DNA of 64,000 nucleotides, from NCBI GenBank assembly GCA_038049695.1, contig CP142458.1, positions 60,421,501 through 60,485,500 of the forward strand. Direction: 5' to 3'. The DNA is from Cinnamomum chago (Eukaryota > Streptophyta > Magnoliopsida > Laurales > Lauraceae). Shown piece after piece: positions 29,057 to 56,640 of this stretch (the first letter of the stretch is position 1; each line of letters starts with the position of its first letter). Below the pieces are notes generated by a model that did not search any database, was not told the origin of the DNA, and worked only from the letters and a program-made list of their open reading frames with translations. The position numbers were made by a program, and so were the translations under genes.

Positions 29057-31930
29057 TAGGCATGTCCCGTGCCACGGGCCAGGCCTTGCCAGGGATGGGC
29101 CGTGCTGTGCCAGGCCGGCGGACTTTTTTTCCTTTTTTTTTTCTTATCAGTATTAAAAATAAAAATTAGAACATAAGCACGGAGAATGACAAAGGTATTT
29201 AAGTGGTTCGGTCAAACTCGACCTACTCCATTAAGAAAAGAGAACCATTTTGATCTTAACTTCTTGAAGGTTTCTAAATAGGATTACCTTCAAAACCTTA
29301 CAATCTTTTTTAGAAAATAAAAAAAAATGAAAATTTTATATATTTACAAATTACAATGAAGGAAAAAGTAAAAAATCAGATGCGTAGTCCACTAATGTAT
29401 TCTGCTGGATCATAATCTTCCATTGATGTCAACTCTTACTTCCTCTTGTCTGCCAAATACCAGTCTCGTAGGCAAACACAACAATCTACCATTTCTTCAG
29501 TTAGATTTGATCTTTTGTCATCCACTACACGTCCACCTGCAGTAAAAGCCTGTTCTAATGCTACAAAAGATATTGGAATAGTCAATAGATCACGAGTCAT
29601 GATGGCCAACACTGAATAAACGCTTTCTTGTTGCTTTCATCAGGCTAAAAGGTCAAAACTAGATGCATCCTTGCACCCGTTTTACACCGACGTCAAGATA
29701 CGATGATAACTCCGTCACAATATTACTTGAGCTTGAGTTGGATGCCATGCCCGTGGACAGAGAAGAATACCACACATCCCACACACCGACACCTGTTTGC
29801 TGAACTTTTAAATAGCCCATACTAAGCCCAGTTGTACCCATTTTGCTCATAATAAAATTGAAAAAGTGCTTGTAGATTTTCCCTCATATTTGAAAAAATA
29901 TTTAAATCTATATAATTCTTATTTTTATTTATTTCATCAATAAAAAATTGTACACAACTTAATTTTAACCTAGCATCAAATACAACAGCTAAAGAAAATG
30001 TTATTGGAACCTTTTTCCAATATTTATTAAAATTTTCTTCCATATTTCTAATAGTGCTACTCAGTAAAAAAATGATCTCTAAATCTACTGAATTGTAAAG
30101 TAATTTTAAAATTTTTCTTTAAAACTTCATTAGATGTGGGATAGTATATCTCGGAAAAAAAAATAATGTTGAAGTATAAAAAACTTCTATTAAATCTCTT
30201 ATATAGGCACATAACTCCCAATGTTCATCACTAATCATCAAATCTTGTGCTTGAAAAGCACAAAATTCATTCAAAACAATTTTCCGGTCAAGTGCCTTGT
30301 TTAATAAATCATACATAAAATTACATCTATGTTCTACCTTTTTAGGCATTTTAATAGCTGATATGCCTTGCCTCCCACATATTTGGGTATACAACTGTAT
30401 TCTCTGTACGTAGGAGAAAATAAATCTAGCAATGTCTTTAATAGCATCTGTGTAACTTACAATATGCTTTAAACCAACCTTTGTCAATGAGATTTAAGAT
30501 GTGACAAATACATCTATTTTGAAAGATATAGCTATCTATCAAAGTTACAAGTGGCATCTGCATTCTCATTAATTCAATAGTCAATGTATTATTACTGACA
30601 TTATCTAAAGTTATAGATAAAACTTTTTCTTTAATATTATATTCATCTAGTTTTTTTTCAAAATAAATGTACTTATTCTAGTGTCATTGTGTGGCCATTC
30701 AAGACAGCTAAAAATAATTATACGTTTATTAATAATCCATTTTGCATCTATGTTATGTGCAGCAATACAAAGAAAACTATCACCCCCTTTAGAAGTCTAC
30801 ATATCTGTGGTTATGGCCATTATACCAGGAATTTCTGGAAGGTAAGATTTGATATTTGTTTTCTCTTCCTGACAGAGTCTAATAGCATCATTTCTGGCTA
30901 TATTTCTTAAAATACTGTGAAATTGTGGTTGACAGTATTTCTGGAACATTTTCAAAAATCTCATTTTCAACAAAAGAAAATAGTAATTCGGGTAACACAA
31001 TCATCTTAACAAGATTTTGTTTAGCACTTTGTGCATTAAAAGAAAAAAGACTCAAACTACTACTACTACCACCACCATCAGCAGTAGAAATTTGGGTCTG
31101 TCTGCATCCGCCGGCTTATATAAGGCTAAACATTTTGCCTATGTCTTGTCAAATGGGCGGTACCCGATTTTGACTCGGCACCATAAATCTTACTACAAAA
31201 TTTGCATTTTGCCTTTTCAACTTTCTTTCCATTTTCAATAACATCAAACCTTGTAAATACATCCCAAACTATTTAAGTTCTATTCCTCTTTGTTGGTTTA
31301 CGGGAACTCTGAGGAAAGGGGGGTGGTAAATCACCTACTTCATCCTGTAATTCAATAAAATCTTCTTCTACCCCTAAATTAACGGAAGAAGATTCTGTGG
31401 AAAATCTTCTAGCCATATTTCAAAAAATAAAATTTATAAATAACAACAGTAATAGGCTAATAGCCTTCTTTTGTGATAATTAATATAAGAAATGGGAGAA
31501 AATGAGAGTTAATATAATATAATATAAACTTATATATATACATATATATATATATGGAATCTCAAATTTAAATAATATAAATACCTCTAAATCTTTGAAG
31601 GTCCCTTTAATCTTGTTTTTTGATGACTTAATCATTGGCCCTCCAAAAGATTCTTGGAGAAAGTGAAAGAGTTGAATGCTTTGAGAGAGAGAGCTATAAA
31701 ATGTATAAAGAGTGAGAGAGAATTGTGTAAATTGGTGAGGAATGAAAATAAGAGGGTTAGGGTATTTATAAACTTTGTAAAATGAAAAATGACATAAAAT
31801 ACCCCTGATATAACCGTTTTATAGTTGGTGGCGGGGGGTGGTTGTAAAATAGACTTCTTTTAAAAAAAAAAAGGGCCGTTGGGCGGGCCGGGCGTTGTTG
31901 AGAAGACCACGCCCATATATACTCATATTT
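29057..31930 (-). mobile_element. Decayed hAT transposon (Ac/RICESLEEPER-like)
   Basis: The left end (from about 29057) and right part (about 31870-31905) carry GGGCC/GGCCC-rich subterminal sequence, as hAT elements often do. Between them lies a broken hAT transposase on the minus strand. A clean 8-bp target duplication and right terminus were not found, so the borders are approximate. The MULE begins just to the right at 31937. Confidence 0.7.
29376..31416 (-). pseudogene. hAT transposase with BED zinc finger, many stops
   Basis: The minus strand begins MARRFSTESSS.. at 31416 and reaches a BED-type zinc finger (VWDVFTRFDVI.., KCKFCSKIYGAESK.GT.HLTRH). Middle segments show KKVEHRCNFMYDLLNKAL (30340) and NKYWKKVPITFSLAVVFDARLKL (30020). 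The C-terminal dimerisation domain follows (TIPISFVALEQAFTAGGRVVDD, about 29560), ending ..EYISGLRI at about 29376. Stops and shifts occur throughout (for example just after the first 45 codons). It is related to plant RICESLEEPER-type transposases and is not functional. Confidence 0.85.
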
Positions 31931-31936
31931 ATATAT
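31928..31936. repeat. 9-bp target site duplication, left of MULE
   Basis: TTTATATAT directly precedes the left MULE end and is identical to 40576-40584. Nine-base duplications are the hallmark of Mutator-like insertion. Confidence 0.9.
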
Positions 31937-32527
31937 CGGATTTGTTCAGGTGAGAAGCCTTCTCACATAATGTATGAGAAGTTTTGCTGACAGCCGTTGG
32001 ATCTGTAAAGTGGATCCAACGGCTGAACCCGGTTTATATATAATACTTGTTTTTTATGGATGGGCGCCAGCTTCACTCATTTCCCCTTTTCGTTTCCCTC
32101 TCCTCATTGGAACGAAAATTTCTCTCCTTCCACATTCCTCTTCATCGTCTCCACCAGCGGCTGATTTGGGCGTCTCCATCTTGCAGCGCCATCACCGAAG
32201 AGAAACGCCCATTTCACTCCTTTCCAAGTTGCAGCTCCATCACCGAAGAGAAAAGACCTCATCGGACCCTTTTCGAACGCATCCCTGTGCTTCGTCTCCT
32301 CTCCATCGACATCTCTCCATCATCGTTACTCGCTGCAGCACCATCAAAACCTGCAGATTTTCGGGCGCCATTGCAAATATTCTTTTGTAGGGTTTGCTCT
32401 CTTCTCCGAAGAAGGTACCCGCTCTGTCTCTCTCTCCTTTCTTCTATTCTCCTCATCATCTACCAATCTACTCTTTCTTCCCATCTCTCTTCATCAGAAT
32501 CCCAAAGAAAGAGGGTTTTCATGGCAG
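31937..32527 (+). repeat. Left terminal inverted repeat of the MULE
   Basis: It pairs with 40575-40078 in reverse. The outermost 48 nt are identical, and inner parts differ by indels (591 versus 498 bp). A perfect 13-bp stem with a 9-nt loop (CAGCCGTTGGATC .. GATCCAACGGCTG, 31991-32025) lies near the tip. Two tandem blocks ending in CATCACCGAAGAGAAA occur at about 32190 and 32240. Confidence 0.92.
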
Positions 32528-32663
32528 GATTATTTTAAATGCTTTGTATGCGTTGTGCTCTGCCCTATGTTCATGTAAAGAACAAATCTGCATATGGAAC
32601 GAACGTCCCTCTGCTGCTGTGAGGTTCAATCTATTTTTATATGTGTAAAAGTGGAGGGCGAGG

Positions 32664-32894
32664 ATGGGTGCAGCCGGGTTCGGACCGGTGAATCTGGGCT
32701 CGAACGCTTTCAGCAGGCTATTGCCCCTGTTCGCTGGTGATGATGGGTACAGGGTTGAGGAGAACAATGGTTGCTTGATGCTTGGCTGGCACACCAGGCC
32801 TCTCATAGCTTTATTTCAACGCTTTCAATTTCTTATTCATATAGCTTCTGAAAGAATGTATGCGGATTTTTGTTTTTTTTATTTTCTGTGTTAG
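32664..32894 (+). other. Unrecognised 76-codon frame inside the MULE
   Basis: The frame begins [20 protein letters not shown]. Its first third is G+C-rich compared with the AT-rich neighbourhood, which could mean a captured gene fragment. I recognise no family, and no splice structure is evident. It may be untranslated. Confidence 0.2.
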
Positions 32895-33696
32895 GGTTTT
32901 TTGATCGTATTAAAAAAATTCTGTTAATTTTTTTTTTTTGATTGCTCATATCATCACATGGGAAAGATTAGATTCTGTTAAAAATGATGGCATCAGAGTC
33001 TGGATGGCCCTCAAGGCAAATGGTATGACCTACTTCATTTTTTAGATTTGTGGAGTCTCAGATCTGTAGTGAATTGATATGAGATAGTGGATATTTTTAA
33101 CAGTTGTATTATTTCCCTTACCATAGAGAAGGTGTATAGAAAAATAAAGTTTTTGAGAAGGACCTGATGTGGTTATAAAGGTAGCAGTCAAAACCTCAAT
33201 TCCTTAATCACAAAAGACCTGATGTGGTTATATCTTCTCCACTTCTACTGGCTCGGTGGAAATAGATGTCAATGTTATTTAATTTGTATACATACATGCA
33301 AATCCAAAGAACTTTCCGTTTAGATGGAGAGAAAGAGACCCATCTATAGTGTCTAGTGTCTAGTCATTACCAAAACTCATATTGAAACAAAGACGCAACT
33401 GAAACTTACTATTGTAAACGTCTAAATGGTCCCCTGTTGTCCTATCCCTCTTTATAATTTTGGATGGATAAAACTTTAGAGCATAATATAATGCATTAAT
33501 GAAAAAAGGAAAGTGAATAATAATGCATTGTTGGCTGAAGTTTTATAGAGTTTGGGAGCAAGTTTTTTTTTTCTGCAAGATTGTACATTTTTTTTTATAG
33601 TTCATCATCTGTTTTGTTTAGGCATTCAGGTGCACACAATTTTTATTTATTTCTTATATAGTCTCATAAACCACTCAATTTTTGTAGGTCGAGAGC

Positions 33697-34059
33697 ATGT
33701 CATCGTCGTATTCTATTTCTAGTGATTACGTGCCAAAATGCTCATGTGGAGAGATGATTTGCCTCACCTCTCGTACAAAGAATAATCCAAATAGGAAGTT
33801 TTGGAGATGTCCCAATTGGAAAGATGAAAAGGGTTGTGGTAGATTCATATGGAAAGATGAAGCTGACTATGAGAAGAATGTAGTAGCACTTGTGGAGGAA
33901 ATGAAGAAGACGGTAGAGAAACTGAATGAAAACGTATGTGATGCAGTTGAAGAGATGAGACATGCTACCGAAGAAAGGAAAAAAATAAACAAATTTCTGT
34001 TTATAGTAGTGTTTGTCAGTTTTCTTGTAATTTTGATCTCCATGATGAAAAATGTGTGA
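33697..34059 (+). CDS. GRF-type zinc-finger protein with C-terminal membrane segment
   Basis: This 120-residue protein starts at an ATG shortly after a possible 3' splice site (TTTTTGTAG at 33688), so an untranslated or short 5' exon is likely. The GRF zinc finger spans residues 12-50 (CSCGEMICL..RKFWRCPNWKDEKGCGRFIWKD), with the Cys/His-type spacing of zf-GRF. A Lys/Glu-rich, probably coiled-coil middle follows, then a hydrophobic segment (FLFIVVFVSFLVILISM). GRF fingers bind single-stranded nucleic acid in some proteins, and small plant versions of this layout are common and uncharacterised. It lies inside the MULE between the inverted ends. It could be a captured host gene or a standard passenger of this MULE family. 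Confidence 0.7.
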   Translation: MSSSYSISSDYVPKCSCGEMICLTSRTKNNPNRKFWRCPNWKDEKGCGRFIWKDEADYEKNVVALVEEMKKTVEKLNENVCDAVEEMRHATEERKKINKFLFIVVFVSFLVILISMMKNV

Positions 34060-34239
34060 TATATCTTCTGAAATCTAATGAATGTGTGATGTATCTTTTG
34101 GGTTCATTTTAATAGGAAAGTGATGGACCTCAAGGGTGATTCAGGCAAAATGTGCTCTTTTAGTCTATACTTACTCCTTTAATCATGTATTTGCAGGATA
34201 GGGATTGCAAGGGGACCTTTGATTGTTTGTATGAATTTC

Positions 34240-34246
34240 TATAAAT
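34240..34246 (+). promoter_or_regulatory. TATA box of the arabinogalactan-peptide-like gene
   Basis: TATAAAT lies 135 bp before the ATG at 34381, with a C/T-rich leader between, as in plant promoters. This suggests the passenger gene carries its own promoter. Confidence 0.5.
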
Positions 34247-34380
34247 CCCACCAAAACCCACATCCCAATTCAACATTCCATACCCTTCCAAGTTCCATCC
34301 CATCTTCTCCTCTGCAATTCCCCAAAACTCCCCATTTCACTCTCCTCATATCCTCCTCTGTTTCTCATCTTTTATCATCA

Positions 34381-34572
34381 ATGGAAGCACTCAAGCTTTT
34401 CACAAAGCTATCTGTTCTTCTTGTTCTTCTCCTTAGTGTTGCAGTATCTGCGCAGGAGGGTGACATTGCTCCATCACCAACAATGACGAGTGGTGCGATT
34501 TCTTGTCTAGTGGTTCTGGGTCCCCTTCTATTCACTTCTCTCATGTGTTTCCTTGCTCTCCTTTCTCATTGA
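34381..34572 (+). CDS. Arabinogalactan-peptide-like protein (63 aa), passenger in the MULE
   Basis: The protein has the full AG-peptide layout. An N-terminal signal peptide (MEALKLFTKLSVLLVLLLSV, cut near VSAQ) is followed by a short mature part with AP/SP dipeptides (EGDIAPSPTMTSG) that could be hydroxylated and O-glycosylated. A hydrophobic C-terminus (LVVLGPLLFTSLMCFLALL) acts in the family as a GPI-anchor signal. AG peptides are small cell-surface proteoglycans of the plant plasma membrane and wall. Length and order match the family (about 60 residues). It is intronless here, as many are. Its position inside a MULE indicates capture from the host or long-term residence. A frame extends upstream to 34219, but the downstream ATG best fits the signal peptide. 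Confidence 0.65.
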   Translation: MEALKLFTKLSVLLVLLLSVAVSAQEGDIAPSPTMTSGAISCLVVLGPLLFTSLMCFLALLSH

Positions 34573-35035
34573 GAGCTCTGTTCTACTGAAGATTTCATGG
34601 AGTTGTTTCAGATTAAAGTAGCTTTTTTTATATGATTGGTGCTTTTTTTGACTTAGTATAGTTGCATATATCTTGTAATTCTGTGGGAGAGAGATTGTGG
34701 AAGAGAGATTGGCTCTTGAGGTCATTCATTTGTAGATGTTACTATTTATATGATTTGATATAAGCTTTGATGAAATAATGGCTCGTCTTAAGTTTGGTCC
34801 ATGTATGCACAGTAAGCCCAGTTTGATCTGACAGTTTTTCTTTGAGTGGGCATTGGCATTGCTAATTTGTTCTGATTCTTACCTCCTTCTGATTGGATTG
34901 TTTCCAAGTTGTATCTGGATGAGCCTGGCCCAACACAAACAACAGTACCGACCTGACCAACCCAAATGTGATTGATGATCTTGATGAGTGCATGATTTCT
35001 CCATTTAGTAATTGCTATACTCACTGCGCTACATA

Positions 35036-35342
35036 GGCTACGTTTCGTTGAGTGCAGTTGGGCACTCAGGTGTAAGAAGCAAATACAAATAAAAAACAAG
35101 TACACATCATAGGCTACATTTCGTTGAAAGGTTTAAAACGTCAGGAGTGCAGTTGGGCAATCCACCAACGTCAGGAGTGCAGTTTGTGAAAGGTTCCAGT
35201 GAAACCTGGAGTGTAGTTTGTGAAAGGTGGCTCCCCCCAACGAATGCATAGAGACTAAGGCTACATTTCGTTGAAAGGTTTAAAATGATCACTTGGGTGG
35301 TGGTAGTTGGGCAATCCACCAACGTCAGGAGTGCATCAAGAT
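35036..35342. repeat. Small complex repeat cluster inside the MULE
   Basis: Short motifs recur in this stretch: GGCTAC(A/G)TTTCGTTGA at about 35036, 35112 and 35261; CGTCAGGAGTGCA at about 35140, 35167 and 35322; GGGCAATCCACCAACGTCAG twice; and GTGAAAGGT twice. It looks like rearranged pieces of one small element. Confidence 0.7.
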
Positions 35343-35522
35343 TCTTTTAGAGACCTAAACAAATTCATCCATTCAATGTTGGCCAAACCACCATTTCCCT
35401 TCTATACCCAGTTTGTGACTGCTGTACATAGCTTACGACTGCAAGAAATGGCTATCAAGTGCTGCTACAGGTGGGATTTCTCCTACCAACCTCAGGATGA
35501 TGTACCACAAGCCTTAACTTTA

Positions 35523-36080
35523 TAAGATGTTGATGCAACTGCCTACATGGATACTGGTGCTAGTGCTCACATCACTAATGATCCAGGTACATTGACAAAC
35601 TTAGTACCCTATTATGGTTCAGACAAAATCATGAAAGGGGACTGATCACATCTAAACATCTCGCACATAGGAGATTGTGAGAAATACAAAAATCTCAAGA
35701 TGAAAGATGTCTCAGTTGTTCCAAATATAAAAAAGAATCTTGTTTCTGTTTCTCAATTAACTAGAGATAATTCTTGTATCTGTGAGTTCACTGATTCAGA
35801 CTTTGTCATTAAATATCAGCAAACCAAGCAGGTCCTAGCAACGGGCAGTAAGAGAGGGAATCTATATGCATTTCACAAGGAAGCTATGATGGATCTTGTT
35901 GCAGTCAACACAGGAAGAGCACTGGAGGAGACACAGCATCATTTGAGAGATAGAACTGCCTCTGAATGTTTGCATATAATTCATAGTGATGTGTGGGGTC
36001 CAGCGCCAATTGAATCTGTTCAAGGAATGAAATACTACATCATATTTGTCGATGATTTTAGAGACCTTAATTCATTCATT
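35523..36080 (+). pseudogene. Copia pol fragment (protease and pre-integrase) inside the MULE
   Basis: The plus strand reads ..YMDTGASAHITND.. (Copia protease active site DTGA), then after a stop (near 35642) a frame with VPNIKKNLVSVSQLT, followed by ..SECLHIIHSDVWGPAP.. and YIIFVDDF, the start of integrase, where it ends abruptly. An approximately 26-bp sequence (AGAGACCTAAACAAATTCAT) occurs just before it (35349) and twice just after it (about 36089 and 36116). The pre-integrase HHCC part is reduced. It is a non-functional insert or captured piece. Confidence 0.75.
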
Positions 36081-36372
36081 CATCAAGAGACCTAAACAAA
36101 TTCATCCATTCACCTAGAGACCTAAACAAATTCATCCATTCACCTAGATTTTTTTAGAGCATCCAAACCATGTATTTTCAAAAGTGCAATATCCACAAGA
36201 TAAAAACAGCTAGAACTCTAATACATCTCCAAATACTCTGTTCACAAAACAAATATTGAAACAGCCAGTATTCTAATAGTTCTGAACCACACCACACATC
36301 AAAACATAAAAAGGATGGTCAGTATGATAATCCAATTAATCCTGGGAGAGAGGGAAGGACCCAACATGAGCA

Positions 36373-39107
36373 TCAATTAATCCTGCGATCAAACATGTAA
36401 TGATCAGTATGATAATAGTAATTTACAGAATCCAATACTATCAGAATAAATTTTTTTAAAATGGACTGATTAATTAGAATGGGAAAATGTATACCTTCTA
36501 ATTGTGTCAATGTCTCGTCCTCAGATGATCTCTCCGATGCCTCATTTTCATTTAATGGCTCAGAGTTGTCATGTGCAATACTAAAAAAAAAAAAAGGCAA
36601 AATTAAACAAAGCTTGTCAATGTATATTAAATTAAAAAAATGCATTGGTAGGAAAAATTCGTACCTCTTGTCAAGCCCAGGGCAATTGCGTCTGTCATGT
36701 GCAACCCCACGCTTGCCACATCCGCGGCAAAGTCGATCTTTCTTCCTGGCTTTTTCCTTAGAGGACTTCAATCTCCTAGGACGACCCTTTGTAATTGCTT
36801 GCTTCGGTGGAAGATATCTCTCTGTAGGGCTTGCTTTTTTCTTTCTTCTCTTTGGATCATCTTCTGCCATCACCGTTTTTTCATTTATCTCGCGAATCCT
36901 TTTTTTAAGGTCTTGTAGAACTGATTTTGCATGCTGATATGCTTCCTTGGACAATGATGCTTCATCAATGATATTTGCAGCATCATATGATAAATCACCG
37001 TGTCGTGCTAGCAATGACCCGTCAAATTCAGAGCATGTACTTTTACCAGAATCATCATCTACCCTCGCATACCTTGTCCATCTTTTCAAAATGTATTGCT
37101 CAGGCAGTGTGTATATTTTTTCTTGTTTCAAAACGCAGATGATGTGTCCACATGGAATGCCTTTGAATTCAAATAGTTGACAAGAACATTTTGCATATTT
37201 TTCATCCTTTTTGAAAATGACGACCCTTTCAATTTCTTTGTTATCTTTGAATGATGAAACATTATATATTCTGTGTTCCATATCATCGTTTACAATCTCA
37301 GCAATGCCGGATGTTATGTACATGAATTGATCTTGGAACTTATAAAACAACTTCTTCGTGTATATTTGTGACATTTGCCTCTCCATTGGCAAGTCCGTCA
37401 TCAATTTTGGCCTTCCATTAGAAGTGTCATGAATTGCCTTCAATTGACGGTACTTTTGAGTTGCAATCCCTTGGTTAAATCGAAACATAAAACCACATAG
37501 ACCATTCTTTTGTGTCACATATTGCTTTACAAAGGCATTAATACTTTCACTCCTTCCGGTTGTTGACATCCCTCCAAAGAAAAGGTGTCTCATATATATA
37601 GGCACCCACATATCACGGATATCGTACATCCCATTTAGCCAATCGTTGTTTGCAACATCCTCTTTTATCAACATCTTCTGCCAACCCGATTCAAATTCCT
37701 CAGTTGTCAAAGAGTTGAATGCGATATTTTTAATTGTTGGGATCAAGTCATTCTTATGTATCGCAACTCCACCTAAATTCTTTTGCAAATTTTCCATGAT
37801 GTGCCACAAACAGTAACGGTGGCTCGTAGTTGGAAGAGCAAACCGAATGGCTTTTGTCATTGCAAGGTCCTGATCTGTCAAGATGGACTTTGGTGGGTCT
37901 CCCGGCATTGCTTCAAGCCATTTATTGAAAACCCAAACAAATGTATCAAAAGTCTCATTTGAGATTAAGCAACATCCAAAAATGATGGACTGATCATGAT
38001 GATTAATTCCAGTGAATACACCAAAAATGAGACCATATCTGTTTGTATTGTACGTTGTATCAAACGAGACAACATCACCGAACTCCTCATATGACTTCTG
38101 GAAATAATAATCAGCCCAAAACACATTTTTTATGTGGTCCTCATCATCTTTCTCAATAGCAAAAAAATTCCTTGGATCTCTCTCCTTCCATTGTCTGAAG
38201 TGTTCGTAAAACATATCACCATCATTGTCCTTTGTTTCCTCATTTTTATCTCTAATATGATTTCGAAAGTCTGTCTCTGTGAAACCCACTTTATCTCTCC
38301 CACCAGCCTGCAACACTAAAATCCCCATTTGTTTATTTGGTCTAATATTAGCAGCCCCATAAGTTTCTATCAATTTTTTTTTTGGGGCGTCAATCCGACG
38401 ATGTGACCGTAGCATGTGGGTCTTTCTAGGGGTACTTAATATATGGGAATGTTCCACAACACTTTTATATACAATCCACTGCCCACTTTTAATTTTTTTT
38501 AACTGAAGACATGCACCACAATTCTCCCGTGTATCTGAGGTCCTTCTTTCACCGCCAATTCTTTCTTTCTTACGACCTTCTTTAGAGCAGACAAACTTTT
38601 TCCTCACTACTTGGTTATTAAGCCTCGTCTCCGAGCTTCGTCTAATGCTAAAACCCGCTTCTTTCGCATAAGTGTTGTAAGCATTGTAAGCATCCTCTAT
38701 ATTTTCAAAAACTTGACCTACTCTTGGTAAGTTCTCTTCATCAACTTGTGGCACAAATGTTTTAATTGGCAAAGATGCGACATTGTCAATCTTTTGTACG
38801 TTTTAAGCACGATATGAGCATCACACCATGACAATACATGCAAAACAAAATTAAAAAGAAAATACGAAAGCAATCAATTGCAAGTTTTAGCAACATATTA
38901 TTTTTCTATGGATAGAGATGTTGAGATGGGAGAGATATAGAGATAGTAACCTACTTGGCTGCTAGCAACTTCACAGGTGATCGGTTGCGATGAGTTTACT
39001 GCTTCAAATGGGGCTGGGAGGTGCGAGGGCATTAGAGACTGCGAATAGATCGGATGCCAAAGTTGCAAATCGATAGGTGGATCATGAGATGAATCTTTGT
39101 CATCCAT
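36373..39107 (-). CDS. FAR1/FHY3-family MULE transposase
   Basis: It cuts and moves the MULE; domesticated relatives are the FHY3/FAR1 light-signalling factors. Exon 1 (39107-38955) supplies the ATG. Intron 38954-38791 joins in phase to the main exon (38790-36665), which has no ATG of its own at its start. A second intron (36664-36581) joins ..CPGLDK to SIAHDNSEP... The last exon either runs to 36373 or splices again near 36495 and stops near 36336. Main-exon domains: FAR1 DNA-binding (residues about 35-125, ending ..VYKSVVEHSH), MULE DDE core with DVVSFDTTY and ILTDQDLAM, SWIM zinc finger (CSCQLFEFKGIPCGHI), basic stretch and CCHC-like knuckle (CRGCGKRGVAHDRRNCP). No internal stop. Confidence 0.9.
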
Positions 39108-40077
39108 TAGGGCAAATATATACTGCATATGAAAATGCCCCTGAATATTAATTCATGAAGAGGAAGCAACAAAGTGGTCACATCACCATGTTTTTGGCAT
39201 GATTTGTGTGTGTGTGTATATATTTGCCTAGTCCCAGTGGTTTGCTTGTTCTATGCCTAGTCCCCTGTATTGAGCTAGCACTAAGTGGGGCAACAAAGTT
39301 CACAATGTGAGGCCCCCTTTTCTTCAGGAGAAACCATTGTGCCAAACTGCCAATACATTCCTCCGTGGATTGTGACGCATGTTCAAAATTTCTATTGGCC
39401 ACTGGATCGGCAGTCATCTACACTAAGTTAAAATATGATATCACCACTTGATATAAAGGTTAGTATCATTTTGATGTGAGGAATATTAAGAACAGTTGCA
39501 AGTCAAAAGGATGTTTCGGTCTAATGCTGTGATGAGAAGTTTGGCCTGTGATGTTGATTTGGATTACGTGTATCAGAAATTAGAGCACAGATGTGTTTGG
39601 GTGGAAAAACCCTTTGCTTGAAGATGATGGTTGCAGGTTTTAAGGGATCAAAGATTTAATTGTCTAAAATCCGGATGAGCATTACATTAATTTGGGTATA
39701 TATATTCAAATTCCAAGTAGGCCAGAGGAGTTTTTAATCCAAGCTGGGTGGTGATTTAAGTACTGATCGCGATGCCTAAAAAATCGAGCACATCAAAGTT
39801 TAAGGGACCATGATAAAAGTTCATATGGATTGATCAACGTGTATAAAACCATGATTATGTTTTTACACCTTAATTAATCAAGGTGCAAAAAAACCATAAA
39901 GGGTGTAAAATAACAGGTTTAGGGTTGATGAAGGTGTAAGGTAAGATGACCATGATGAGGCTTGCTATTATAAACTATTCTAGTTGGCTCAGATTTTTGA
40001 GAATCCACAATTTTTGCTTGGTGCATTGACTGAGAAAAGGAGGGTGCATAAGAAATCGCAAGGGTGACCACTCACCA

Positions 40078-40575
40078 CTGCCATGAAAACCCTCTTTCTT
40101 TGGGATTCTGATGAAGAGAGATGGGAAGAAAGAGTGGATTGGTAGATGATGAGGAGAATAGAAGAAAGGAGAGAGAGACAGAGAGGGTACCTTCTTCGGA
40201 GACAGAGACGAAGCACAGAGCAGCGTGGAGACGAAGCACAGTCGAAAAGGGTCCGATGAGGTCTCTTCGGTGATGGAGCTGCAACTTGGAGATGAGTGAA
40301 ATGGGTGTTTGGAAAAGAGTGAAATGGGCGTTTCTCTTCGGTGATGGAGCTGCAACGATGGAGACGCCCAAATGAGGGGATGGAGAGGAGAAGTTTTCGT
40401 TGGAAGGAGAAGAGGGAAACGAAGAGTGAAATGGAGAGAAATGGCGCCCGTTTTCAGCAATGACAAGTCTTATATATAAAATGTTGGCAGCCGTTGGATC
40501 CACTTTACAGATCCAACGGCTGGCAGAAAACTTCTCATACATTATGTGAGAAGGCTTCTCACCTGAACAAATCCG
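40078..40575 (-). repeat. Right terminal inverted repeat of the MULE
   Basis: It is the reverse complement partner of 31937-32527. It carries the same 13-bp hairpin at 40488-40522 and only one of the two tandem blocks in full, which accounts for part of the length difference. Confidence 0.92.
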
Positions 40576-40584
40576 TTTATATAT
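40576..40584. repeat. 9-bp target site duplication, right of MULE
   Basis: TTTATATAT, identical to 31928-31936. Confidence 0.9.
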
Positions 40585-44157: not shown

Positions 44158-44167
44158 TATATAAATA
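44158..44167 (+). promoter_or_regulatory. TATA box of the LRR receptor kinase
   Basis: TATATAAATA lies 61 bp upstream of the ATG at 44228, a normal distance for a short plant leader. Confidence 0.55.
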
Positions 44168-44822
44168 TACGAGAGTGCATTCTGTTTCTTTATTCGAGCT
44201 CTCCCCCTATCTCTAGACAAAACTAGTATGCAGCTTCCCAACATGATTCTGAGTAGGAGACTCTTTGCGGAGTACTCTCTCTTTCATGTCACTTTTCTAG
44301 TTATTTGCATCAACTTGATGTGCTTTGCAGAAGCTGCCAGTGCCATCCCCTTGAGAAATGAGTCGGATCGGCTCGCTCTGCTCGCTATCAAGGGCCAGAT
44401 ATCTGATGGTCCCAACGGAATCCTGAGCTCTTGGAACCATTCTCTCCATTTCTGTATGTGGGGTGGTGTCACTTGTAGCAGGCGACATCCTCAGCGCGTC
44501 ATAGCATTGAACCTCAGAAGCCAGAACTTGGCAGGCTATTTATCACCTCACATTGGAAACCTCTCCTTTCTCAGGGTTATAGAACTCGCAAACAACAGCT
44601 TCCAAGGCCAAATTCCCCCCGAAATAGTCGGTCTGCGACGACTCCGCTCTCTTCATCTCGCAAACAATTCTTTCAATGGAGAGATTCCAGGCAATTTGTC
44701 CCAGTGTTCAGAACTCGAAAGATTGGGTTTATATGGCAATAAGATTGCTGGTACAATTCCTCCAGAGCTGGGCTCTCTGTCAAATCTCAGGCGGTTGGAT
44801 CTTCACATCAACCATCTCATTG

Positions 44823-44827
44823 GCCGC
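44823..44827. repeat. Target site duplication GCCGC, left of the Gypsy element
   Basis: It is identical to 56636-56640 and directly abuts the TGT start of the left LTR. Confidence 0.93.
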
Positions 44828-45545
44828 TGTAAGTGCAGAAATAATAATACTCACAAGATCAGGATGCCTCTTAGGACTTATTCAATGCATGGAGGAGATA
44901 GCTGCGACGACCTGAGCCTGAAAGAGGAGAAAGACAAAGGTCAGAGGACCCTGGCTCTGGGCAGCGCAGGGCTCTCCGATGCTTAAGTCAGCAATGGATC
45001 GGAGAAGAAGAAGAAGAGGAAGAAGAAAGACTGGGTGTTTTTGTGAGAGTGCTTACCCCTTGCTCCCTTTGGCTCGTGCCTTATATATGGGACAGTCTTG
45101 GGTGAATGCCAGTGGGCTTGGTGATGTGACCTGGGTCACATCAGCCCACAAAGCCATTAATGAAGGTCCATCATAGCCCATACTGCATTTAATGTGGGTC
45201 CGATCAGCCCACAATGCATTTAATGTCAGTCACATTGGGCCTGATCCTGCCCTGATCTGGTGGTGGCTGAAGTCCCATCAGATCCCTTCCTTGGGCTTTG
45301 CCACGATAGGGCCGCGGCTATCAGCTGCAAGCGCAATTCCGCATTGCCGAGCTTGCATTGCCGAGACTGAACGATACGCGCGGCCGAACTGAATTCTGTT
45401 TGGCCGAGACCAGCACGTAGTGCCGAGACCGAAGTAGATCGGATCGTAGCCGAGATCAAGGGACGTGGTCCCCTAAACAGTAGCTAACCGAGCACACCCT
45501 AGCCGAGACCAAGAGAAACTAGTTCACGGAATGGGCCCCCACACA
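44828..45545 (-). repeat. 3' LTR of the Gypsy element (718 bp)
   Basis: On the plus strand it runs TGTAAGTGCAG.. to ..GGGCCCCCACACA. It is the same length as 55918-56635 and differs at one base by direct reading. Short frames inside are not genes. Confidence 0.95.
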
Positions 45546-49947: not shown

Positions 49948-52900
49948 CTAAAAATAGAATTTTTTGAGGTGTGAGGCGTTCCATGGTCTCGGTAGCGGAC
50001 GTCCCTCCATGTCTTCGAGCCGATAAGCCGACCGTCCAGCAATGGAAGTGACCTTAAACGGACCATGCCAATTCGGCGCTAGCTTCCCTTGATTCGGATC
50101 CCTGTCGGCTGGGAGCGCTTTCTTGAGAACCAGTTCCCCCACGCAGAACTTCCTTTCTCTGACGTTCTGGTTATAGCCCCTGGCTAGCCGCTGCTGGTAG
50201 ACGGCCAGTCTGACTGCCGCCGCTTCTCTTCTTTCGTCTGCCAAATCCAGTTCCCTGGCCAAGTTAGTCTCGTTCTGTCCTTGGTCAAAGAGTTCGGACC
50301 TCAGAGTGGGGAGGCCGATCTCCAAAGGGATGACCGCTTCCATCCCGTAGGCGAGCGAGAAGGGGGTAGCCGAAGTGGAACGCCTTGGAGTGGTCCTGTA
50401 AGCCCACAGGACGCTCGGCAGTTCTTCCACCCATCTCCCCTTCGCTTGGTCCAGCCGCTTCTTGAGCCCATCGAGGATCACCTTGTTGGAGATCTCGGCC
50501 TGGCCGTTACTCTGTGGGTAAGCTGGCGTGGAGTAATGGTTTCGGATGCCGAGATCCTGGCAGAAGGTCTTGAAGAGTTTAGAGTCGAACTGAGTTCCGT
50601 TGTCCGAAACCAGCGCTCTGGGAATGCCAAACCTTGTAACGACATTCTTCCACACAAAATTCTTGGAGTCTCGCTCTGTGATGGATGAAAGTGGCTCTGC
50701 TTCGATCCATTTGGTGAAGTAATCTGTCGCCACAATAAGCCATCTCTTGTTCCCTGGGGTTCGGTGGAGCGGGCCCACTATATCGAGCCCCCACTGGGCG
50801 AATGGCCACGGGCTAGAGAGCGGGCTGAGATCCTGCGCGGGCTGATGGAGAGAGTGTGAGAACTTCTGGCACTTCTCGCACTTCTTCGCATATACCTGCG
50901 CATCTTTCTGCATATACGGCCACCAGTAACCCTGGCTGATGGCTCGGTAAGATAGGGATCTTCCTCCGATATGGCTCCCGCAGATTCCTTCGTGCATCTC
51001 GAAAAGGAGGTCCTCGACCTTACTTGGATGGACGCACTGGAGGTACGGTCCCGAGAACGATTTCCTGTAGAGCTTGACTTCGGGAGATAGCCAAAACCGA
51101 GCTGCCTTGAGTCTGACCCGGTGGGCCTCACCACTGTCCTCGGGAAGCCTGTCGTCCTTCAGGTAGGTGATAATAGGGTCCATCCAGCTCGGACCGAGAC
51201 CGATGCATAACACTTCCCGAGGTGAACAGAGCTCAATGCTGGGCGCAGCTAGCGATCCGACTTCGACGCTCCTCTTTTTCCCTGCCTCAACAGCACTGGC
51301 CAGGTTAGCCAAGGCGTCTGCGTGAGAGTTCGCTTCTCTGCCGATCTGCCTGACTTCGGCCGACTGAAATTGTGCCAGCAGCTTCTTAGCCAGGGCCAAG
51401 TACGCGGCCATCCGGTCGTCGCGAGCCTGGTAGTTCCCAGTCAGCTGGTTTGTCACCAACTGTGAATCACTGAAGACCACCAGCTGTTGAGCTCCGAGGA
51501 TATTGGCACTGTTAAGTCCGGCTAAAAGGGCTTCGTACTCAGCTTCATTGTTTGACGCCTTGAAGTCCAGGGTCAGAGCCTGCTCGATGACCAGTCCTTC
51601 TGGCGATTGGAGAACAACTCCTGCTCCGGCTCTTCTCGAGGTGGAAGATCCGTCGACGAAGATTTTCCAAACTGGGGTCTCGGCTTGAGATGGTGATTGT
51701 TCAGAACTCGTGGGAGCCCCACGCTCCTCGCCCCCCAGTTCGGTGCCGAGCTGGGTTGGTGCCGAACTTGAATCAAACTCGGCGAGGAAATCTGCCAGAA
51801 CCTGGGCTTTTATTGCTGTCCGTGGCTGATACTGAATCTCATACTGCCCTAGTTCGACAGCCCATCGGGAGATTCTTCCTGAAAAGTCAGCCTTCTTGAA
51901 AACAGATTGGAGTGGGTGCTCCGTAACAACCGCAATAGAATGGGTTTGAAAGTAATGGGAGAGCTTTCGCGAGGCGCTAACGAGCGCCAAGGCGAGCTTC
52001 TCCAGAGGCAGATACCTGGTCTCGGCATCAATAAGGGTCTTGCTCGTATAATATACCGGTTTCTGAACCTTGTCCTCTTCTCGGATGAGGACCGAGCTGA
52101 CCGCATGATCCGAGACCGCTAAGTATAAATACAGGGTCTCCTCGTGGGTCGGGGTTGACAACAACGGTGGTGATGAAAGGTAAGCCTTGAGCTGCTGCAA
52201 GGCGTGGTCACATTCTGGGGTCCATTGGAATTTAGAATTTTTTCTAAGAAGATGAAAGAAAGGTCGGCACTTATCTGAAGATTTGCTGATGAAGCGATTC
52301 AGTGCCGCGGCCATTCCTGTAAGCTTCTGGACCTCCTTGACCGAAGTTGGACTCTGCACTCTGAGGATAGCTGAGATCTGATCTGGGTCTGCCTCAATGC
52401 CTCTGCGTGTAACCAAGCTGCCCAAAAACTTGCCGGAACCAACACCGAAGGCGCACTTCGAGGCGTTAAGCTTCAGCCGGAACTTCTTTAGAGTGGCGAA
52501 GATCTCGGCCAAGTCTGACAGATGATCCCGCGCCTGCTTGGACTTGACCACCATGTCATCGATGTAAACCTCCACGGTTTTGCCGAGCTGATCGTGAAAC
52601 ATATTGGTGACAAGTCTCTGGTAGGTGGCCCCTGCATTCTTCAGCCCAAACGGCATCACCTTATAACAGTAGGTTCCCCTGGGCGTGATAAAAGCTGTTT
52701 TCTCTTCGTCTGGCCCAAATAGTGGGATCTGATGATAGCCGCGGTAGGCGTCGAGGAAGCTCATTCTGTCGTGCCCGGCCGTGGCGTCGATCAACTGGTC
52801 AATCTTCGGGAGGGGAAAGCTGTCCTTGGGACAGGCTTTGTTGAGGTCGGTAAAGTCGACGCACACCCTCCACTTGCCAGTCTTCTTCCTGACGACCACC

Positions 52901-55857
52901 GGATTGGCTAACCATTTCGGGTATTGAACCTCCCTGATAGCTCCGGCCTCAAGCAGCTTATCCACTTCCTCGACGACGGCTTCGGTCTGCGGGACCCCAG
53001 TTCTCCGTGCCTTCTGCATCACAGGTTTGTGGTTAGGGTCAACATTTAGTTTGTGACACATTACCTCGGGGTCGACGCCAGGCATCTCCTGAGGCGTCCA
53101 GGCGAAGGCATCTCTGTTCTGCATCAGGAACTGGGCCAGTTCGGACCTTTCCGGCTCTCCAAGCTGGCTGCCGAGTAGAAAGAACCGATCCGGGTCCTTC
53201 TGGTCGATCCGGACTTCGGCCAATTCCTCGACGCTCTTCCTGCCCGGATCTTGGCCGAGCTCATCCAGCCCCTGCTCCAGGTTCTTCTCCATCTCGGCCA
53301 CATTGACCTCCTTGGGCTCTTGCTCCCCAGGTACCACAGCTGTCAAGCACAGCTTAGCCGCCTGCTGATCTCCTCTTACCGTGATAATCTCAATTCGGCC
53401 GCTCTTTCCCTCCCATGGAAATTTCAGCTTCTGATGGAGGGTGGAAGGGACTGCTTCCAGGCTGTGGAGCCAAGACCTGCCCATTATAGCATTGTAGGGA
53501 GAGGGTGCGTCGATCACCATGAAGGTTGCCATGACAGACGCGCCACCGACCTCGACCTTGAATGTCACTTTCCCCTTAGGATAGACTGGTTTGGCGCTGA
53601 AGCCGATAAGGGGAATTCGAGCCTCCTGCAGATCTTTCTCTGTCAGTCCCATCCTTCGAAAGCTGTCGAAATAGAGGACCTCGGAAGAACTACCGGGGTC
53701 AACAAGGACTTTCTTCACAGTACAATTCTTCACGCCCTGCTTAGAGCAATCGAACTTCAGAGTCACGATCAGGGGGTCGTTGTGGGGGAGCTGCACCCCT
53801 TCTAGATCTGCATCAGTAAACCTGATCTCGGGACGCTCCCTCCGAGCCCTTTTCGGTGCTGAACCGAGTTCGGCGGCCATGACATGTTTGCCGTGAGAGG
53901 CTTTCCTGGCTTCGGCACGTGCTTGGTTACTCCCCTTGGGCGGGGGTGCCAGATGGATAACGTCAATTATCTTCTCTGTCCCGTCGCTGTCGTGACCCCC
54001 TTCGTCTCGGCGCGGGGCTCGGGTGTCGGCCCTGGTTTCTCTCCTGACAAACTCTTGCAGGTGTCCATCCTGGACAAGCTTCTCTAAATGCGACCGCAGT
54101 ATCCTGCAATCTTCAGTCTTATGGCCGCCCTCCTTGTGATAGGAACAGAACTTCGTCTGATCTCGTTTAGAAGGGTCGCCTTGCATGGGCTCTGGCCAGC
54201 TGAAGTACGGCCTGCTCTTGATCTTATACATGATTTTGTGGATTGGCATCTTGAAGACCGTGTTGACCGCCTGGAATGCGTCCTCTGTCAGCCTGGGTCG
54301 CTTGTTTCTTTCCGAGACGAACGCATGAGGCCTTGCCGAGCTGGTGGGCGCCCAACGCCTGTTTGGCTCATCTCTCCGCCGCTCCTCTCTCCGAGGTTCA
54401 CTCCTCCGAGACGGTCCCCCGTCTTGCCTGGATGTCCTCCCACCCCGGTCCTTCAGCGCGGTTCCATGGTTTTCCCGAGCGCGGATCTGGTCATCTTCTT
54501 GGGCAATGTACCGGTTGGCGATGGACATGAGCGCTGCTATGGAAGACACCGGGTTCCTAGCCAAGTCCTTGCGGAGATCGCTGTCTGGCAGCAAGGCATT
54601 CTGGAATGCGAAGACGGCAACCTCGTCCTTGGAGCTCTCTATCTGACTGTAGACCGCCCAGAACCGCTTGGCGAACTGGGTGACGTTCTCTCCTTGCTTC
54701 ATCTTCAAGGCCATGATGTCTGCATCTGTCTTCGGAAGGACTCTGTAGGCCTGGAACTTCTTCAAGAAGGACTGCTGGAGCTGCTGCCAGCTCGAAATGG
54801 CCCCCTCCGGTAGTGCACAGAACCACTTCAGGGGGAGGTCACCCAGACTGGAAGAAAAAACCCTACAGTTCAGGTGACCCTCATCTCCCCAGACAGACAT
54901 CCTCTGGGAGAAGTGCCTGAGATGCGTAGCTGGATCCGAGACCCCATCATAGGTGACGAATCTTGGTACGGTGAACTTCTTGGGTAAGGGGTACCTCCTG
55001 ATGTCTTGGGAGAAAGGAGACGCACCGAGATCAACGGGGTTACAGCAAGCATCCTTTTGGTCTCGGCCGAAGCCGGCTACCTCCAGGTTGCGCTGGACCG
55101 TTTCCCTTATGTGTGCGTCCAGCCATTCCTGGTCTCGGTACATGTTCTCCGGAATGGTTTCGGACGCCTTCCTGGAATAGCTACGGCTGGCGCTTGAGCC
55201 TTCATCTCGGGTTCGGTCGTCCCCTTTCTTGTTCCTGTTCAAGTGGTCCCTCAGATCCTCCTTTGAGGAAGAGATGCGCGTAACACGAGTAACCCTCTCC
55301 TCATGTTGTCGCTGGGATCGCTCCTGACGAGTCCGCTGCTGCTGGGACTGCTCCTGACGAGTCCGCTGCTGCTGTCGAGACCGTTGCTGCTGTGACTGCT
55401 CCCTACGAGTCCGCTGCTGCTGCCTTGCTGAGCCCGCAGCTTTCTCCAGCTGCTGCTGGAGCTGGCGGATTAGAGCATCCTTTTCCCTGAGGGCCTCGTT
55501 CTGTGCCTTAATCTCCCGAAGGGTGGAGTTCAAGCTGTCGCCAGGGTTGTAGTCATCATCCTCTTCATCCTCAACGTCTTCGACGTGTCCTTCCTGACCT
55601 GAAGGGCGTGGTCCATCGACCACTGGGGACTTATCCCGCTGGTCTCGCCCTGTCAGGAGACCTGCAGGCTGCTGGGCGTCTCCCCTCCCGGGAGCGGACT
55701 CTGTACGGAGGTCACGCTGCTGGACGTTGATCCGGATGAGAGCGCGTTCAGCATCGTCCTCTGCGACTACTTGCTTCCCAGCCCTCTGCTGGTCAGGGGG
55801 CGGTCCTGCATGCTTTGTCTTGGAAGTCTCTCCGCTTTTCGCAGTTCTCCTCGTCAT
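49948..55857 (-). CDS. Gag-pol polyprotein of the Tat/Retand element (1969 aa)
   Basis: A single open frame starts at an ATG about 40 nt after the primer-binding site. Order: N-terminal region with an acidic patch and a Gln/Arg-rich repeated stretch (residues about 100-190, QQQRTRQEQS-type units); gag core (RYPLPKKFTVPRFVTYDG..GDLPLKWFCALP); protease (VLVDPGSSSEVLYFDSF); reverse transcriptase (WRVCVDFTDLNKACPKD, YIDDMVVKS); RNase H (YYTSKTLIDAETRYLPLEKL); a second RNase H of the archaeal-like type (WKIFVDGSSTSRRAGAGVVL, NNEAEYEALLAGL) typical of Tat elements; integrase (zinc part HEGICGSHIGGR..CEKCQKF; core GLDIVGPL, LVSDNGTQFDS, PQSNGQAEISNK); C-terminus ..WNASHLKKFYF without a chromodomain. 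I see no stop or lost catalytic residue. It is likely competent. Confidence 0.95.
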   Translation of the reverse strand: MTRRTAKSGETSKTKHAGPPPDQQRAGKQVVAEDDAERALIRINVQQRDLRTESAPGRGDAQQPAGLLTGRDQRDKSPVVDGPRPSGQEGHVEDVEDEEDDDYNPGDSLNSTLREIKAQNEALREKDALIRQLQQQLEKAAGSARQQQRTRREQSQQQRSRQQQRTRQEQSQQQRTRQERSQRQHEERVTRVTRISSSKEDLRDHLNRNKKGDDRTRDEGSSASRSYSRKASETIPENMYRDQEWLDAHIRETVQRNLEVAGFGRDQKDACCNPVDLGASPFSQDIRRYPLPKKFTVPRFVTYDGVSDPATHLRHFSQRMSVWGDEGHLNCRVFSSSLGDLPLKWFCALPEGAISSWQQLQQSFLKKFQAYRVLPKTDADIMALKMKQGENVTQFAKRFWAVYSQIESSKDEVAVFAFQNALLPDSDLRKDLARNPVSSIAALMSIANRYIAQEDDQIRARENHGTALKDRGGRTSRQDGGPSRRSEPRREERRRDEPNRRWAPTSSARPHAFVSERNKRPRLTEDAFQAVNTVFKMPIHKIMYKIKSRPYFSWPEPMQGDPSKRDQTKFCSYHKEGGHKTEDCRILRSHLEKLVQDGHLQEFVRRETRADTRAPRRDEGGHDSDGTEKIIDVIHLAPPPKGSNQARAEARKASHGKHVMAAELGSAPKRARRERPEIRFTDADLEGVQLPHNDPLIVTLKFDCSKQGVKNCTVKKVLVDPGSSSEVLYFDSFRRMGLTEKDLQEARIPLIGFSAKPVYPKGKVTFKVEVGGASVMATFMVIDAPSPYNAIMGRSWLHSLEAVPSTLHQKLKFPWEGKSGRIEIITVRGDQQAAKLCLTAVVPGEQEPKEVNVAEMEKNLEQGLDELGQDPGRKSVEELAEVRIDQKDPDRFFLLGSQLGEPERSELAQFLMQNRDAFAWTPQEMPGVDPEVMCHKLNVDPNHKPVMQKARRTGVPQTEAVVEEVDKLLEAGAIREVQYPKWLANPVVVRKKTGKWRVCVDFTDLNKACPKDSFPLPKIDQLIDATAGHDRMSFLDAYRGYHQIPLFGPDEEKTAFITPRGTYCYKVMPFGLKNAGATYQRLVTNMFHDQLGKTVEVYIDDMVVKSKQARDHLSDLAEIFATLKKFRLKLNASKCAFGVGSGKFLGSLVTRRGIEADPDQISAILRVQSPTSVKEVQKLTGMAAALNRFISKSSDKCRPFFHLLRKNSKFQWTPECDHALQQLKAYLSSPPLLSTPTHEETLYLYLAVSDHAVSSVLIREEDKVQKPVYYTSKTLIDAETRYLPLEKLALALVSASRKLSHYFQTHSIAVVTEHPLQSVFKKADFSGRISRWAVELGQYEIQYQPRTAIKAQVLADFLAEFDSSSAPTQLGTELGGEERGAPTSSEQSPSQAETPVWKIFVDGSSTSRRAGAGVVLQSPEGLVIEQALTLDFKASNNEAEYEALLAGLNSANILGAQQLVVFSDSQLVTNQLTGNYQARDDRMAAYLALAKKLLAQFQSAEVRQIGREANSHADALANLASAVEAGKKRSVEVGSLAAPSIELCSPREVLCIGLGPSWMDPIITYLKDDRLPEDSGEAHRVRLKAARFWLSPEVKLYRKSFSGPYLQCVHPSKVEDLLFEMHEGICGSHIGGRSLSYRAISQGYWWPYMQKDAQVYAKKCEKCQKFSHSLHQPAQDLSPLSSPWPFAQWGLDIVGPLHRTPGNKRWLIVATDYFTKWIEAEPLSSITERDSKNFVWKNVVTRFGIPRALVSDNGTQFDSKLFKTFCQDLGIRNHYSTPAYPQSNGQAEISNKVILDGLKKRLDQAKGRWVEELPSVLWAYRTTPRRSTSATPFSLAYGMEAVIPLEIGLPTLRSELFDQGQNETNLARELDLADERREAAAVRLAVYQQRLARGYNQNVRERKFCVGELVLKKALPADRDPNQGKLAPNWHGPFKVTSIAGRSAYRLEDMEGRPLPRPWNASHLKKFYF

Positions 55858-55897
55858 GGTATTTAGGAATAGGAATAGGAAAGATTATAGAAATCGT

Positions 55898-55917: not shown

Positions 55918-56635
55918 TGTAAGTGCAGAAATAATAATACTCACAAGATCAGGATGCCTCTTAGGACTTATTCAATGCATGGAGGAGATAGCTGCGACGA
56001 CCTGAGCCTGAAAGAGGAGAAAGACAAAGGTCAGAGGACCCTGGCTCTGGGCAGCGCAGGGCTCTCCGATGCTTAAGTCAGCAATGGATCGGAGAAGAAG
56101 AAGAAGAGGAAGAAGAAAGACTGGGTGTTTTTGTGAGAGTGCTTACCCCTTGCTCCCTTTGGCTCGTGCCTTATATATGGGACAGTCTTGGGTGAATGCC
56201 AGTGGGCTTGGTGATGTGACCTGGGTCACATCAGCCCACAAAGCCATTAATGAAGGTCCATCATAGCCCATACTGCATTTAATGTGGGTCCGATCAGCCC
56301 ACAATGCATTTAATGTCAGTCACATTGGGCCTGATCCTGCCCTGATCTGGTGGTGGCTGAAGTCCCATCAGATCCCTTCCTTGGGCTTTGCCACGATAGG
56401 GCCGCGGCTATCAGCTGCAAGCGCAATTCCGCATTGCCGAGCTTGCATTGCCGAGACTGAACGATATGCGCGGCCGAACTGAATTCTGTTTGGCCGAGAC
56501 CAGCACGTAGTGCCGAGACCGAAGTAGATCGGATCGTAGCCGAGATCAAGGGACGTGGTCCCCTAAACAGTAGCTAACCGAGCACACCCTAGCCGAGACC
56601 AAGAGAAACTAGTTCACGGAATGGGCCCCCACACA
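55918..56635 (-). repeat. 5' LTR of the Gypsy element (718 bp)
   Basis: It pairs with 44828-45545. On the minus strand it supplies the promoter for gag-pol. Being at the 3' side of the receptor-kinase coding strand, it is opposed to kinase transcription. Confidence 0.95.
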
Positions 56636-56640
56636 GCCGC
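56636..56640. repeat. Target site duplication GCCGC, right of the Gypsy element
   Basis: It follows the ACACA end of the right LTR and is identical to 44823-44827. One copy belongs to the kinase codons GGC CGC. Confidence 0.93.

Follow-up and report, generated by a model that had tools for sequence, protein, structure and literature searches.

When a transposable element is found to carry small genes beside its transposase, are these genes cargo taken up from the host, or do they belong to the element itself? The question is raised by a Mutator-like element (MULE) at positions 31937-40575 of a 64,000-nucleotide stretch of Cinnamomum chago DNA (C8:60421501-60485500; this whole stretch is called the window hereafter), in which a FAR1-type transposase gene is accompanied by a GRF zinc-finger gene and by a gene for an arabinogalactan-peptide-like (AG-peptide-like) protein. 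A preliminary description, made from the letters of the window, had placed the limits of the element exactly and had taken both small genes for passengers. Comparison with the rest of the genome (1.06 Gb in 14 contigs) leads to another division of roles: with a probability of roughly 0.8, this is a two-gene autonomous MULE of Jittery-like kind with the GRF gene as its second gene, of which one sub-lineage captured the AG-peptide-like gene and multiplied, the passenger being probably a hitch-hiker. The parts on which this reading is built are the following, from left to right.

31928..31936, no strand: left 9-bp target-site duplication (TSD) TTTATATAT (sequence; ends mapped)
31937..32527, plus strand: left terminal inverted repeat (TIR), outer end CGGATTTGTTCAGGTGAGAAG (TIR-TIR alignment)
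32984..34059, plus strand: GRF zinc-finger gene, 136 amino acids (aa) in all (Pfam PF06839; exon 2 in 20 of 20 copies)
36373..39128, minus strand: transposase gene (main exon 36664-38799, Pfam; splice sites inferred)
40078..40575, minus strand: right TIR (TIR-TIR alignment)
40576..40584, no strand: right 9-bp TSD TTTATATAT (sequence; ends mapped)

The structure of the element is established. The same TTTATATAT stands at both flanks as the perfect 9-bp duplication claimed earlier, and it encloses imperfect TIRs of 591 bp (left) and 498 bp (right). The TSD of 9-11 bp that marks MULEs was also read at the C10 copy (TTTATTAAA), at L021 (TTTTCTATA) and at L026 (TATATCTAT), the limits being unreadable in most other copies owing to their (TA)n flanks. 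On the minus strand, the main transposase exon is open over 712 aa and encodes FAR1 (PF03101, E 5e-18), MULE (PF10551, E 1.1e-27) and SWIM (PF04434) domains, all above the Pfam cut-offs, in agreement with the open FAR1-type transposase described before; a putative exon 1 lies at 38956-39128 and a putative 3' exon within 36373-36583. The GRF zinc-finger open reading frame (ORF; 33697-34059), likewise noticed at the outset, passes PF06839 with 28.8 bits against a cut-off of 25.9. Its gene would begin with a short exon 1 (32984-33022, MMASESGWPSRQM), followed by an intron and by exon 2 (33688-34059), the junction having been placed by eye from GT/AG signals and frame. Exon 2 encodes the zinc finger, a helical middle part and a hydrophobic C-terminus (Kyte-Doolittle maximum 3.13).

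How widespread is the element, and does it still move? With its left end (31900-33000) as query and the best 40 of 135 candidates scored, 20 transposase-bearing copies were found, window copy included, which is a lower bound. Two of the loci, L014 and L015, are halves of one copy, and three were left out of the count: L021, a 2.2-kb derivative with TIRs and neither transposase nor GRF, L011, which has one TIR only, and L038, a short internal match. At least 19 further transposase-bearing copies exist, so that the element as such is no product of chance. Set against the window copy, the C10 copy (L009) shows 10 substitutions and two gaps (1 and 30 bp) in 8.6 kb; it carries its own duplication and lies in unrelated surroundings, there being no mutual match among flanks of about 220-540 bp taken from each of the C8, C10 and C5 copies. 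The element has therefore moved recently, and its supposed mobility is borne out. The window copy as a dead relic is ruled out by the open main transposase exon and GRF gene and by the near-identical C10 copy. Among the 20 copies, the main transposase exon is free of stops and indels in 11, with a ratio of nonsynonymous to synonymous change (dN/dS) of 0.53.

The usual insertion sites of the family are (TA)n tracts. Of its 39 readable ends, which come from 21 elements with L021 counted, 30 adjoin a TA run of 8 bases or more, compared with 0.25% of window positions; the window copy, with runs of 7, and the C10 copy, with runs of 2 and 3, lie below this mark. Such a habit is known among MULEs and is shared with MuTAnT/AutoMuTAnT and TAFT elements, which insert into TA microsatellites, and with SaTar MULEs, which target microsatellites (PMC4486113, PMC5907723). 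As to the ends themselves, in most copies among L010-L040 the TIRs diverge from those of the window (left TIR 79-94% identical) more than the interior does (95-98%). The two window ends match different copies best (left, L010 at 94%; right, L027 at 97%), which suggests that ends have been exchanged between elements. A second, tandem TIR is found in L025 (7832-9224), about 790 bp from the first, comparable to the multiple-TIR MULEs of PMC3310237.

The decisive evidence on the two small genes comes from their distribution. The GRF gene is present in all 20 transposase-bearing copies at 96-100% identity, with its whole frame open at 18 of these loci, the exceptions being L016 (one stop) and L019 (an internal duplication); the AG-peptide-like gene is carried by three copies and absent from 17. 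The preliminary description had itself named other copies lacking both genes as grounds against its view: the AG-peptide-like gene is indeed missing from most copies, the GRF gene from none. The pairing was followed further with the transposase as query, so that the count is unbiased by GRF: the best 65 of 2939 transposase candidates were placed against 102 GRF places (best 150 of 594 scored), second pieces of listed copies, C5:9663810 and C8:59113160 being left out of the resulting 52 and 13 loci. At every one of the 52 loci with transposase identity of 63-100%, a GRF gene lies tail to tail with the transposase within 15 kb (30/30 at 90% or more, 12/12 at 80-89%, and 10/10 at 60-79%, the lowest being 63%), for which the chance is about 0.003 per locus. 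On these two counts, 20/20 and 52/52, the view of the GRF gene as a captured passenger is rejected, and this part of the preliminary description does not hold.

Selection appears to tell the same story over longer distances. Comparison of the window GRF gene with the divergent genes of L047, the partner of a 64%-identical transposase, and of L049 gave dN/dS of 0.40 and 0.38 (Fisher p about 6e-4 and 5e-4). These are two of four intron-containing genes that were fetched, L050 (stop) and L048 (first part incomplete) having been left out.

Several observations weigh against this two-gene reading. At 50-59% transposase identity, none of 13 loci showed a tail-to-tail GRF gene with the window query: 12 lacked a GRF in the 15-kb range, and the remaining one has a GRF on the same strand, 8.5 kb away. 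The 52 loci are not independent, many being recent copies, and the pairing comes from the genome sequence of one species. At closer range the GRF gene is also under weaker constraint: its dN/dS is 0.72 among the 20 close copies (0.53 for the transposase) and 0.67 among seven intron-less genes, 80-100% identical (window pairs 0.47-0.89). In these seven genes the zinc-finger part has a dN/dS of 0.90 against 0.63 for the tail part, and a finger less constrained than the tail argues against DNA binding as the sole function or as the main source of constraint. Judged by these ratios, selection on GRF is weak among close copies and clear solely in the deep comparisons; the young copies offered selection little time. 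The zero at 50-59% is due at least in part to the reach of the window GRF query: of the 13 loci, three (52-55%) were checked directly, and two have a divergent GRF gene downstream: L051 and L052, nearly identical to each other, with transposases of 54% and 55%, and with GRF genes that share the hydrophobic tail and an intron after a PNW motif. The third, L053, had no GRF in the 2-kb stretch, which again counts against the pairing.

Could GRF be an older acquisition, both small genes having been captured by an otherwise one-gene MULE, GRF earlier and then amplified by hitch-hiking? The weak selection at closer range and the 13 loci just mentioned agree with this, as do the occurrence of GRF fingers in host-type repair proteins (the closest solved relative by sequence being NEIL3, a weak match with E 0.0037) and the listing of plant Jittery-group elements as having one ORF (PMC6446971). 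A neutral hitch-hiker, however, would be expected to be absent from many copies, like the AG-peptide-like gene, which 17 of 20 lack, whereas GRF stands tail to tail at all 52 loci of 63-100% and was found at two of the three checked at 52-55%; both deep comparisons moreover point to purifying selection. Such a double capture is thus quite improbable.

Two side observations concern GRF genes elsewhere. At C10:7215978-7219954, C9:56931600-56935727 and C6:83998870-84003086, transposases 92-95% identical to that of the window lie beside a far more divergent GRF gene with an intron-like gap, which suggests that GRF and transposase modules may have been swapped between lineages. Genome-wide, the GRF profile gave 531 first-look candidates, of which the best 150 were scored, with 128 matches; many of these are near-identical multi-copy sets of frames of about 70 to 105 aa, and other transposons may carry GRF genes too.

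Where does a two-gene element of this kind stand among known MULEs? In maize MuDR, two convergent genes, mudrA and mudrB, are transcribed from the TIRs (PMC3310237, PMC6446971), and the second, mudrB, encodes a protein whose function is described as unknown, yet which is apparently needed for integration (PMC6446971). The present element has the same plan, a MULE transposase gene and a small-protein gene each starting near a long TIR and converging, an orientation seen in the window and at all 52 placed loci. The likeness drawn here is one of gene layout: the small protein is in this case a GRF zinc finger with a hydrophobic tail, and the transposase has a FAR1 domain. By domain content, which is the only ground of the assignment, the transposase resembles the Jittery group, having FAR1 at the N-terminus, the MULE core, and SWIM at the C-terminus; the dicot and monocot MULEs of that group (group 36 of PMC6446971) are, however, listed there with one ORF and with FAR1 plus SWIM or CCHC, in contrast to the conserved second gene present here in 20 of 20 copies. 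AutoMuTAnT, whose transposase is similar to that of Jittery, is reported to have a single ORF in 4.9 kb (PMC4486113, PMC5907723), where the present copies mostly measure 8-9 kb and have two genes. From these comparisons with MuDR, Jittery and AutoMuTAnT, the element is best described as a MULE whose domains are Jittery-like and whose two-gene plan resembles that of MuDR. VANDAL MULEs, too, carry and retain genes for accessory proteins, although their VANC and KIU proteins belong to other families (VANC, Ulp1 domain) (PMC13317346). A literature search, with subscription journals and Repbase outside its range, found no link between a GRF gene and a MULE, and GRF is absent from the main text of PMC6446971.

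In the mechanism that we propose, the minus-strand transposase gene and the plus-strand GRF gene would be read inward, each from beside its own long TIR. The transposase would cut and join, and the GRF protein would serve as an accessory transposition factor, perhaps by attaching to single-stranded or TIR DNA as integration proceeds. Single-stranded DNA is the ligand of the GRF finger of APE2 (PMC8593216), and NEIL3 is, by a weak match, the nearest solved relative in sequence, so that a role at single-stranded integration intermediates is a first guess. The hydrophobic tail might tether the protein to a membrane; alternatively, the protein may oppose silencing, as VANC does (PMC13317346). Between the two convergent genes, one sub-lineage took up some 0.7 kb of a host gene, and it then spread to at least three places with this cargo. 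The captured piece consists of the following.

34237..35030, plus strand: captured host segment (donor within C12:3521498-3522194; blastn 97.2% and 98.6% to L035)
34240..34246, plus strand: TATA box TATAAAT, near the upstream limit of the captured piece (sequence and donor alignment)
34381..34572, plus strand: complete AG-peptide-like coding sequence (CDS), 63 aa (protein the same in window, C10, C5 and C12)

The AG-peptide-like gene is genuinely a passenger, a whole host-derived gene, and here the preliminary description of a complete gene with its own TATA box in a mobile MULE holds. The captured piece includes the TATA box, the whole CDS and the 3' region. In the genome (six of six candidates scored), its close matches are the elements in the window, on C10 and on C5, and C12:3521498-3522040, from which the match reaches to about C12:3522194; the host parent that was to be sought lies there. 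Relatives are found on C4 (65% identical) and C6 (53%). Alignment alone gives no direction, and the C12 locus could in principle have received the segment from an element, but this is very improbable indeed: there is no family TIR in the 10 kb around the C12 locus (L035), its homology with the element is confined to the gene segment, the segment is absent from 17 of 20 elements, and the C4 and C6 genes are its relatives. With C12 as donor, a stretch of 105 bp (34852-34956; 122 bp in the C5 copy) within the captured segment is absent from the donor, having been either gained once the segment was captured or lost at the C12 locus.

Does the captured gene now function, with transcription driven by the core promoter that came with it or by a TIR, and with selection keeping it? 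The protein is identical at all four places, in the three elements and the donor, and between window and donor 1 of 192 coding sites differs, synonymously, against 16 of 496 flanking sites. This contrast hints at constraint on the AG-peptide-like protein, but its Fisher p is just 0.052 (for the C5 copy, 0.13), and the same pattern would arise if only the donor branch were constrained; between window and C5 copies the comparison (0/192 coding against 6/602 other sites, p 0.35) is uninformative. Furthermore, the captured piece starts a few bases 5' of the TATA box, and the further-upstream promoter sequence was therefore left behind. That the element spreads a working proteoglycan gene, as the preliminary description had supposed it could, is thus no more than a possibility. 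A functional passenger is accordingly considered unlikely, and the gene is probably a recent hitch-hiker with no part in transposition.

How well does the protein deserve its name? AG peptides are expected to have 50-90 aa, AP/SP-type dipeptides and at least 35% proline, alanine, serine and threonine (PMC5073881); a signal peptide and a GPI-anchor signal are looked for as well. With 63 aa and AP, SP and GP dipeptides it agrees in length and dipeptides, and by hydropathy only both its termini are hydrophobic (Kyte-Doolittle 2.46 at the N- and 2.36 at the C-terminus); its content of the four residues is 33.3%, below the rule, with 42.2% and 39.7% in the host paralogs. The protein had no significant Pfam match. 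The label is reasonable, though not formally satisfied.

Pack-MULEs are non-autonomous (PMC3310237). Like them, the present sub-lineage has MULE TIRs around a host gene whose parent, on C12, can be identified; it differs from them by its open transposase exon and by the completeness of the captured CDS. It is therefore not a Pack-MULE by definition, but a MULE sub-lineage that bears Pack-MULE-like cargo.

Two lesser features lie inside the element.

35520..36060, plus strand: Copia-like polyprotein fragment (Pol_BBD match weak, below cut-off; limits and label partly by eye)
36099..36175, no strand: repeat unit, with two or three occurrences in several other family copies (multiple matches per copy)

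By blastn, the Copia-like fragment is found in the C10 copy and has no match in the C5 copy. Elsewhere in the window, a 1978-aa open frame on the minus strand (49948-55884) reads by eye like the gag-pol polyprotein of a long terminal repeat (LTR) retrotransposon, and is flanked by frames that resemble, again by eye, pieces of leucine-rich-repeat receptor kinases (44165-44986 and 56593-58842).

What follows for the family at large? The odds seem evenly balanced that the Jittery-like FAR1 MULE clade as such has a conserved GRF second gene in the position of mudrB, encoding a protein that is possibly membrane-anchored through its hydrophobic tail and that may bind single-stranded or TIR DNA in integration or act against silencing. 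If so, transposon genes would account for many of the plant genes that bear the annotation 'GRF-type zinc finger'. Names can be given to the captured gene, to the locus that donated it and to the transposase of the element, so that the capture of an intact CDS by a MULE can be traced through later moves. Finally, the finding points to a conserved partner gene in a MULE group for which one gene is listed, and this partner would be a candidate for the role of mudrB-like proteins.

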